From Thermaerobacter sp. FW80 (GTDB lineage Bacteria; Bacillota; Sulfobacillia; Thermaerobacterales; Thermaerobacteraceae): a stretch of DNA of 64,000 nucleotides. The stretch is from contig NZ_CP037895.1 in NCBI RefSeq assembly GCF_004634385.1, forward strand, positions 2,455,245 to 2,519,244, given 5' to 3'. Below are positions 26,961 through 29,528 of the stretch, piece by piece (position 1 is the first letter of the stretch; every line of letters begins with the position of its first letter). The notes under the pieces are model-generated. The model was not told where the DNA came from, made no database searches, and saw only the letters and a program-made list of their open reading frames with translations. Made by a program: the position numbers and the translations under genes.

Positions 26961-27431
26961 CTAGGCCCCGTACCAGAGGACGCAACCGGCGAAGACGCAC
27001 CCGCACCGCGCGACCACGTGCTCCACGGAGCGCACCAGGATCTCCCGCGGGCGCCCCCCACGAACGACGAAGCTCTCCTCCACCATGCGGCGGATGGTGG
27101 CTTCCACCTCGCTGGCACTGGCATATGCGGTGTGCTCCATGATCATGCCGAAGCGGCCGGGTTCGTCCCGTCCCACGGCGACGGCCGCGGCGATGCGCGT
27201 GCCGGGCTCGGCGGACACCAGCCGACCGTAGGCGATGGGCACCAGCGCCCCGGGGGGTAGCGCCAGCCGCTCCAGCGGCTGGGCACCCGGCGGGAGGATG
27301 CTGGAGACCTTGACCAGGTTGACGTTGGCCACCCCGGCATCCAGCAGCGCCGCATCGAAGGCCGTCAGCGGGGTCTCGCCCTCGGCCCGGCCCGTCACCA
27401 GGGCGAACCGGTTGGGAATGGGCAACACCAT
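26961..27431 (-). CDS. Pyruvoyl-dependent arginine decarboxylase (PvlArgDC)
   Basis: Converts L-arginine to agmatine and CO2, the first step of one polyamine route. The 156-aa proenzyme carries the self-cleavage site VSS at Ser43-Ser44 within NLVKVSSILPPGA; cleavage gives a small beta chain and an alpha chain whose new N-terminal pyruvoyl group is the cofactor. GMIMEHTAYASASEVEATI contains the conserved catalytic Glu region. ATG 27431 has GGGAGGTGCCC five bases upstream. The family is best known from archaea and chlamydiae. No agmatinase gene is adjacent. Confidence 0.9.
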   Translation of the reverse strand: MVLPIPNRFALVTGRAEGETPLTAFDAALLDAGVANVNLVKVSSILPPGAQPLERLALPPGALVPIAYGRLVSAEPGTRIAAAVAVGRDEPGRFGMIMEHTAYASASEVEATIRRMVEESFVVRGGRPREILVRSVEHVVARCGCVFAGCVLWYGA

Positions 27432-27884: not shown

Positions 27885-27989
27885 TCGTCCACAACCGGCG
27901 GCCGGCTCATCCCCAGGAAGAGCGGGCTTATCCCCAATGGACCCCGCTGTTATCCCCAGGAATCGACACTTGCCCACAGCTTGTCAACA
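27885..27989 (+). promoter_or_regulatory. Phased array of DnaA-box-like 9-mers
   Basis: Within the 27432-28158 gap, five same-strand 9-mers resemble the DnaA box TTATCCACA: TCGTCCACA (27885), TCATCCCCA (27907), TTATCCCCA (27928), TTATCCCCA (27950) and TTGCCCACA (27970). Spacing is 22, 21, 22 and 20 bp, two helical turns. TTGTCAACA follows at 27981. TGTCGATTC and TGTCGCTCC on the other strand resemble Spo0A boxes (TGTCGAA). dnaA is not nearby. The remainder of the gap shows nothing else. Confidence 0.55.
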
Positions 27990-28158
27990 AGGAGCGACAC
28001 GATCTCCCAAGAAGGGACAGCCCATCAGCGGCCTGCACCACCGGTCGGCCCCCCGGACCCGGGTCGCCCCGAGGGGAGGGCGGGGCGACCCGTCGTCCGG
28101 GGGAGGGACCGGGTCCGCCCGGATGGATCCTGCCGCTTCCCACCGGAGGTGGACGGTC

Positions 28159-28398
28159 ATGCCGTCCCCGCAACCTGCCCGCCGGTCCGTCGACGTCGAC
28201 CCGGTCGCGCACCGGGCCGCCCAGGTGGAGATCGAACGTCTGCGCCGGATGCTCTACCGCATGGCCCGCCGCCACGGCTGCAGCGATCCCGCGGTGCTGG
28301 ATCTCAGCCGGCGGCTGGACGCCCTGATCGTCGGCTGGTACCGGGCCCACCGCGGCGGCGAGGCGCCGCACCCCGGCCCCGCGACCACCGCCTCGTGA
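28159..28398 (+). CDS. Spo0E-like aspartyl-phosphate phosphatase
   Basis: 79-aa protein with the Spo0E family core: IERLRRMLYRMARRHG (about 25-40) followed by DPAVLDLSRRLDALIVGWYRA, where S50-RRLD54 corresponds to the SQELD signature. Spo0E-type proteins dephosphorylate Spo0A~P and so delay sporulation. GGAGGT lies eight bases before ATG 28159. The upstream gap has Spo0A-box-like and DnaA-box-like sequences, a plausible link between replication or sporulation state and this gene. The last residues and the stop fall inside a 21-bp tandem duplication. Confidence 0.8.
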   Translation: MPSPQPARRSVDVDPVAHRAAQVEIERLRRMLYRMARRHGCSDPAVLDLSRRLDALIVGWYRAHRGGEAPHPGPATTAS

Positions 28399-28426
28399 TG
28401 CCTCGCCACCGCCTCGTGATGCCTCG
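28385..28426 (+). repeat. Exact 21-bp tandem duplication across the spo0E-like stop codon
   Basis: Two identical 21-bp units (28385-28405, 28406-28426) beginning CCACCGCCTCGTGATG. The first unit contains the Spo0E-like TGA and an overlapping ATG (TGATG); the second repeats both. TGATAAAAT follows directly. Confidence 0.85.
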
Positions 28427-28442
28427 TGATAAAATCCAGGAC

Positions 28443-29528
28443 ATGGACCACCACGACATCCCCCGGGCGGAAGCGAGACGGGAACGACCCGACCTCCCGG
28501 ACCGCGGGGACGCTGCCCCCGGCCCCGCGGCCCTGGACCGCATCGACTGGGAGGCCTTTCGGCTGGTGGCCGTCGACCTGGACGGGACGGCCGCGGGTCC
28601 CGATGGCCGGGTCAGCCCGCAGGGGCTGCGGGCGCTGGCCGCTGCCGAGCGCGCGGGCCTCCACCCGGTCATCGTCACGGGTCGCGCCCTGCCGGCCGCC
28701 ATGGGGGTGTGGCTCCGCGCCGGGCTGAGCCGTCCGGTCATCGTCTGCGGTGGAGCCCTGACCGCATGGCCCACGGCCGGCCGCCCCCTGCGGGAACGCC
28801 CGCTGGATCCGGCGGCGGTCCAGCGCGTGCTGCGGTTGGCGCGGGAGCTGGACCTCATCCCGTTCCTCTACGGTGCCGACGGCATCGTCACCGACCGCCC
28901 CAGCGCCTGGCGCGACCGCCTGGCCCACCTCAACGAGACCCCCATCCCCGTCGATCCCGACGGCCTCACGCCCGTGACCTCCGACGGCCTCACGGCGGAC
29001 GAACCCGGCCCGGTGTCCGATCCAGCCGGGGGACCCGCGGCTCCGGCCCAACCGCCGGCGGATCCGCGCCACGGGCCGGCAGGGCTTGCGGCGGGGGCGG
29101 CGGGGGCGGCGGATCCCGCCACCCCCGCCGGGGGGCCGCGGGGTCGGCCGGTCTACAAGGTGGTGCTGGCCACGGACGCCCAGCGGGCGGCGCGGGTGCG
29201 GCCGGCGGTGGAACGGGGCCTCGCGGACCTGGACGCCTGCTGCGTCGCCACCCTGCCCGGCCTCCTGGAGATCGTCCGCCCGGACGCCACCAAGGAGGCC
29301 GCCCTGGCGGACCTCTGCCGCATGCTGGGCGTGCCGCGGGAGGCGGTGATCGCCATCGGCGACGGGGAGAACGACCTGGGCATGATCCGGTGGGCGGGGC
29401 TCGGCGTGGCGATGGCCAACGCGCAGCCGGAGGTCCGGGCGGCGGCCCGACTGATCATCGGCCATCACGCCGACGACGGCGTGGCCCGCTTCCTCGAGGC
29501 GGTGGTGAGCCGGCGGCAGGCCCGCTGA
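28443..29528 (+). CDS. HAD-superfamily hydrolase, Cof-type sugar/nucleotide phosphatase
   Basis: 361-aa phosphatase of the Cof/HAD-IIB class. The catalytic motif I is VAVDLDGT; motif II region is HPVIVTGR; motif III/IV is DATKEAAL plus GDGENDLGMI near the C-terminus, and GVAMANAQPEV is the class signature. The cap domain is interrupted by a Pro/Ala/Gly stretch of about 70 residues that is not part of the family fold. ATG 28443 has only a weak AGG upstream; in-frame ATGs at 28398 and 28419 lie in the duplicated segment and overlap the Spo0E-like stop, so coupled initiation there is possible. Confidence 0.85.
   Translation: MDHHDIPRAEARRERPDLPDRGDAAPGPAALDRIDWEAFRLVAVDLDGTAAGPDGRVSPQGLRALAAAERAGLHPVIVTGRALPAAMGVWLRAGLSRPVIVCGGALTAWPTAGRPLRERPLDPAAVQRVLRLARELDLIPFLYGADGIVTDRPSAWRDRLAHLNETPIPVDPDGLTPVTSDGLTADEPGPVSDPAGGPAAPAQPPADPRHGPAGLAAGAAGAADPATPAGGPRGRPVYKVVLATDAQRAARVRPAVERGLADLDACCVATLPGLLEIVRPDATKEAALADLCRMLGVPREAVIAIGDGENDLGMIRWAGLGVAMANAQPEVRAAARLIIGHHADDGVARFLEAVVSRRQAR

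Follow-up and report, generated by a model that had tools for sequence, protein, structure and literature searches.

Organization of the locus

The window (the whole 64-kb stretch of Thermaerobacter sp. FW80 DNA that was analyzed) contains an array of DnaA-box-like 9-mers, candidate sites for DnaA, the initiator of chromosome replication. The array lies between a divergent gene for a pyruvoyl-dependent arginine decarboxylase and a gene for a Spo0E-like protein. In order along the window, the features of this locus are:

26961..27431, minus strand: pyruvoyl-dependent arginine decarboxylase gene (PF01862), divergent, flanking the array opposite the Spo0E-like gene; syntenic in four of four species
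27885..27893, plus strand: DnaA box 1, TCGTCCACA, with A at position 7; the same 9-mer is a box of the genome's own oriC
27907..27915, plus strand: DnaA box 2, TCATCCCCA, C at position 7; exact fit to the Caulobacter W-box KMRTCCCSM
27928..27936, plus strand: DnaA box 3, TTATCCCCA, C at position 7
27950..27958, plus strand: DnaA box 4, TTATCCCCA, C at position 7
27962..27968, minus strand: Spo0A-box-like TGTCGAT, 6/7 to TGTCGAA, in a conserved segment between boxes 4 and 5
27970..27978, plus strand: DnaA box 5, TTGCCCACA
27981..27989, plus strand: DnaA box 6, TTGTCAACA, 11 bp after box 5; top matrix score in the window
27989..28019, plus strand: conserved block AAGGAGCGACA-N8-CAAGAAGGGACA (also given as AAGGAGCGACA-N8-CAAGAAKGGACA), directly downstream of box 6; four of four species
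28053..28106, plus strand: G+C-rich hairpin, presumed to lie in the mRNA leader of the Spo0E-like gene; from single-sequence folds, four of four species
28159..28398, plus strand: Spo0E-like gene (PF09388), 79 aa, with the Shine-Dalgarno sequence GGAGG upstream
28443..29528, plus strand: Cof-type HAD hydrolase gene (PF08282), downstream of the Spo0E-like gene; syntenic in four of four species

The first-pass annotation of this DNA had described five 9-mers. The array itself is real and the count was low, since a sixth box on the same strand starts at 27981. Start-to-start distances across boxes 1-6 are 22, 21, 22, 20 and 11 bp with all six boxes on one strand, such that the 20-22 bp phasing and common orientation described for the first five are upheld. 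Helical phasing calculated at 10.5 bp gives R = 0.94 (0.96 for the congeners), in line with the suggestion that the array occupies one helix face.

To score the boxes, a DnaA-box weight matrix was trained on regions upstream of dnaA from 33 genomes of the same class, with own-genus oriCs included and the array itself left out. The matrix was seeded with TTATCCACA and thus scores likeness to DnaA boxes rather than providing independent motif discovery. Across both strands of the window, all six boxes rank within the top 14 of ~128,000 9-mers and the three top-scoring 9-mers all lie inside the array; scores for boxes 1, 2 and 5 are moderate only. In first-order Markov simulations of 64 kb (60 runs), at most 3 same-strand boxes fell within 105 bp; with the local intergenic composition (300 runs) the maximum was 2. 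The 6 observed agree with the initial impression that such an array is hard to get by chance. By sequence, the array is a DnaA-box cluster, with several 9-mers fitting the organism's box packed more densely than chance allows.

Genome-wide statistics were obtained by pattern searches. Among 154 class genomes, a phased box triple occurs only in the array, in the oriC of genome G063 and in one coding sequence, and the array geometry of one site per two helical turns is therefore rare in this class. At the G063 oriC (L179, C33:43-92), upstream of dnaA, three boxes are phased at 21-22 bp in the same geometry as the array. The coding-sequence match, in G031, lies inside a glmU-like gene and was taken as chance.

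Conservation of the array within Thermaerobacter

This genome (G000) was compared with three congeners, G001, G002 (T. marianensis) and G003. Given that G001 and G003 are nearly identical at the locus, the four species represent three independent lineages. The locus order of divergent decarboxylase gene, array, Spo0E-like gene and HAD hydrolase gene is found in all four. Conservation of the spacing had been named as a check, and both array and spacing pass it: the six boxes recur in every species ahead of the same Spo0E-like gene, their spacing varies by no more than 1 bp, and their starts relative to box 6 are at -95/-96, -73/-74, -52/-53, -31, -11 and 0. Between lineages, identity is 89-93% for all boxes and 86-89% for boxes 1-4, while the three spacers separating boxes 1-4 have diverged, to ~39-43% even at the best shift.

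Substitutions within boxes are confined to positions 1, 2, 3, 4 and 7. Box 2 (TCATCCCCA) is invariant in four of four species, and box 3 of G002 carries T at position 7. Two homologous positions shift between forms known from oriC, namely box 1, which is TCGTCCACA here, CTATCCACA in G001 and G003 (likewise an oriC box) and ATGTCCACA in G002, and box 5, which is TTGCCCACA here and TTGTCCACA in G002. Judged from these alignments, the pattern of change is what would be expected for DnaA sites.

Outside Thermaerobacter, no array was found before Spo0E-like genes at about 30 class loci, and a class-wide association of DnaA boxes with Spo0E-like genes was rejected on the same survey. The family and order relatives G004-G006 lack either the locus or the array. 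Conservation is restricted to one genus, in three independent lineages.

Box sequences and predicted nucleotide-form preference

Comparison with the oriC of the same genome had been proposed as a further check. Its boxes (TTATTCACA, CTATCCACA twice, GTATCAACA, TCGTCCACA, TTGTCCACG and TTATCCACA) are of the same kind as those in the array, where box 1 is identical to one of them and box 6 (TTGTCAACA) is close to GTATCAACA. The oriC also holds a tandem in which GTATCAACA lies 11 bp from CTATCCACA, like the distance between boxes 5 and 6. DnaA had been put forward as the candidate binder, and the fit of all six boxes to the class-oriC matrix, together with the oriC identity of box 1, speaks for it. 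On these sequence grounds, DnaA very probably binds the array.

Inspection of the box cores reveals TCCCCA in boxes 2-4, in place of the TCCACA found in most oriC boxes, making CCCCA the commonest core in the array. C at position 7 (C7) is rare at class oriCs (11/209 matrix sites), and a matrix scan at score 6 found no C7 box in the genome's own oriC. As those 11 sites and mixed clusters elsewhere in the class carry C7, the C7 boxes do not form a separate motif. In E. coli, Caulobacter and H. pylori, C at position 7 is reported to mark ATP-DnaA-selective sites; for the first two it is also reported to be the cause of this selectivity, the effect is tied to DnaA residues D433 and L438, and the Caulobacter W-box consensus is KMRTCCCSM (PMC8235120). 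The DnaA of this genome retains the recognition motif GGRDHTTVLHA. From this literature, the W-box fit of box 2 and the retained motif, we infer by analogy that boxes 2-4 would prefer ATP-DnaA.

Further DnaA-box clusters were seen in the genus and class. Class clusters elsewhere mix TTATCCACA, TTATCCCCA and TTGTCAACA at similar spacing. A recurring triple of TTATCCACA, TTATCCCCA and TTGTCAACA (or TTATCAACA), 12-21 bp apart, is present in other families of the class at L061 1404-1444, L063 1489-1529 and L084 1499-1548, the last near a seryl-tRNA synthetase-like gene, and appears to be a conserved cluster of DnaA boxes at a distance from dnaA. Upstream of hpf, which encodes a ribosome hibernation factor, this genus has a cluster at L008 1501-1621 (G000 C1:1045134-1045254) with three box positions kept in G002 and G003; two other class genera have hpf-upstream clusters at L058 821-915 and L075 1501-1530. 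DnaA control of hpf is possible. An inverted pair, TTGTCCACA/TTATCCACA, 23 bp apart, lies between a yabQ-like gene and a gene for a small HTH protein (L007 1478-1509; G000 C1:925383-925414) and is also present in G002 and G003.

The Spo0E-like gene and its upstream region

The Spo0E-like gene that had been noted downstream of the array is real, starting at 28159 and matching PF09388 with E=2.4e-9 (37.5 bits versus a curated cut-off of 23). An SxxLD motif is present (LSRRLD), where LSRRLDALI aligns to FSRDLDKLI of PDB 2BZB in a weak match (E=0.46). From its sequence, the product is predicted to be Spo0A~P phosphatase-like. A second Spo0E paralogue elsewhere in the genome is without DnaA boxes. 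A perfect 21-bp tandem duplication (CCACCGCCTCGTGATGCCTCG, 28385-28426) at the end of the Spo0E-like gene was not seen in the congeners.

The conserved block past box 6 is a candidate promoter region. Searches found no sigma-70-type promoters or intrinsic terminators; a sigma-H-like AAGGAGCG-N11-CAAGAA has fitting spacing and hexamers that match poorly. The predicted leader hairpin is long, with a purine-rich loop and compensatory changes between species; it has no U tract and no Rfam match. Spo0A-box-like sequences had also been reported in this stretch. One heptamer is indeed present, a weak match at 6/7; three of the four species share it and the other differs at a single position. The consensus used, TGTCGAA, comes from PMC5295017 and is not a Thermaerobacter-derived motif.

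All four genomes carry spo0A, and all four lack sda (PF08970); for both genes, the B. subtilis control was found. T. marianensis is described as spore-forming (PMC3035304), as is T. composti.

A proposed link between DnaA and Spo0A phosphorylation

We favor the reading in which the array probably serves as a regulatory element that binds DnaA at the promoter region of the Spo0E-like gene, and its control of that gene is likewise probable. Oriented DnaA molecules would occupy the six boxes on one helix face, with box 1 and the tandem of boxes 5-6, which are the outer, oriC-type sites, serving as anchors. The C7 boxes 2-4 would then fill cooperatively, mainly with ATP-DnaA. Occupancy of the array would alter transcription of the Spo0E-like gene, where activation is favored, as at Bacillus sda. 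The product would dephosphorylate Spo0A~P, such that sporulation is held back while DnaA is active for initiation, either as initiation proceeds or after it. Both the sign of the regulation and the phosphatase activity are predictions.

A checkpoint role for the array is a more tentative proposal that we consider somewhat short of probable, and it is drawn from analogy with Sda. That analogy is plausible, since these genomes carry spo0A and lack sda. As in a checkpoint of the DnaA/Sda type, DnaA boxes lie upstream of a predicted inhibitor of Spo0A activation; the target itself is not Sda, given the lack of PF08970. It is conceivable, though we lean against it, that sda-less, deep-branching spore formers evolved a checkpoint of their own, in which ATP-DnaA on a C7-dominated two-turn array switches on a Spo0A~P phosphatase.

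Alternative explanations for the array

The strongest alternative is that the array titrates DnaA or otherwise controls replication by setting the level of free ATP-DnaA, with the Spo0E-like gene an incidental neighbor. Parallels exist in B. subtilis DnaA-box clusters and in E. coli datA and DARS, and further DnaA-box clusters are kept in this genus beside unrelated genes (hpf and the yabQ gap). The B. subtilis clusters restrain initiation, one of them partly restores restraint when re-introduced at various locations, and such clusters can affect replication without a role for the adjoining gene (PMC5295017). Here, however, the array and the Spo0E-like gene have been kept side by side in the same position, the array is directed toward the gene, and sequence conservation reaches beyond box 6 to the presumed promoter and leader. 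The array is also far from oriC, by 1.6 Mb in this genome and, measured along the short arm, by ~1.2 Mb in T. marianensis, whereas B. subtilis clusters with such a role are oriC-proximal, according to work cited in PMC5295017. We regard titration as unlikely.

It is improbable that another transcription factor, one recognizing a TNRTCCNCA-like motif, uses these sites and that they look like DnaA boxes by coincidence. The commonest core of the array, CCCCA, is rare among oriC boxes (11/209), but TCGTCCACA, CTATCCACA, TTGTCCACA and TTGTCAACA are identical or nearly so to oriC boxes. Moreover, homologous positions vary only within DnaA-box limits, and the mix of TTATCCACA, TTATCCCCA and TTGTCAACA recurs in other class clusters.

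Slightly less probable still is control of the arginine decarboxylase gene in place of the Spo0E-like gene. That gene is divergent and syntenic in four of four species, and a TTGACA hexamer lies on the minus strand at box 6. Against this, its start is ~450 bp off across diverged sequence with no recognizable promoter, and conservation extends toward the Spo0E-like gene.

An origin had been judged less likely for want of a nearby dnaA, and the wider genome bears this out. The genome measures 3.04 Mb, with its sole full-length dnaA at C1:855 kb and oriC upstream of it at C1:854.8-855.1 kb; the array, at 2,483 kb, is 1.6 Mb away. In T. marianensis the array is at 1.618 Mb, ~1.2 Mb from oriC by the short arm, and GC skew, as sampled, is negative to its left and right and changes sign near 1.29 Mb, opposite dnaA. 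Because the sampled skew stays negative around it, the array lies on one arm, on the terminus side, and does not mark an origin. The array has no neighboring dnaA/dnaN, no A+T-rich unwinding stretch was found (the lowest 60-bp G+C, inside the array, is 53%), and the identified neighboring genes include no replication initiator. A cryptic or secondary origin, or iterons of an integrated plasmid, is accordingly very unlikely, given the position of dnaA, the congener without a skew change and the lack of a recognized initiator gene, despite the resemblance of iteron origins to phased direct repeats with DnaA boxes.

Comparison with known systems

Among direct routes for the restraint of sporulation by DnaA, Sda in Bacillus is the best known. 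DnaA control of a Spo0E-like protein in Thermaerobacter, if real, would mean that replication became coupled to sporulation through another target as well, and would suggest that spore formers in general need a checkpoint of this kind. The array would also illustrate how ATP-DnaA can be sensed away from oriC, and as a compact DNA target it is directly testable. No paper treating "DnaA box" and "Spo0E" together was found in the literature searched, which took in few subscription journals.

The sda promoter of B. subtilis is the closest parallel, with DnaA boxes upstream of a small gene that restrains Spo0A phosphorylation. This sporulation brake is activated by DnaA, with ATP-DnaA binding far better than ADP-DnaA; the preference is measured at sda (PMC4447404) and predicted for the Thermaerobacter array. 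The systems differ in that the predicted Thermaerobacter target belongs to the Spo0E family of Spo0A~P phosphatases whereas the sda product is a kinase inhibitor, and in that Sda is absent in Thermaerobacter, where the boxes share one strand with a 20-22 bp phasing and three of the six are C7. Were the checkpoint real, it would represent functional convergence with DnaA-Sda at a different pathway step, using a DnaA array geometry rare for the class.

The C7 boxes resemble the Caulobacter W-boxes, the weak sites of E. coli and the ts1 and c-ATP sites of H. pylori, where C is likewise at position 7 and weak boxes stand among stronger ones; box 2 matches the W-box exactly. In contrast to these known C7 boxes, those of Thermaerobacter lie outside oriC, before a sporulation gene, and the array spaces its sites by two helical turns where the H. 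pylori oriC1 array has 2-bp gaps. With the B. subtilis DnaA-box clusters outside oriC it shares an intergenic position away from the origin, yet it is regularly phased on one strand, lies on the terminus side and adjoins a Spo0E-like gene. Conservation of the array before a gene for a predicted sporulation brake, in four of four species, suggests that these heat-loving bacteria tie replication to sporulation in another way than Bacillus does.
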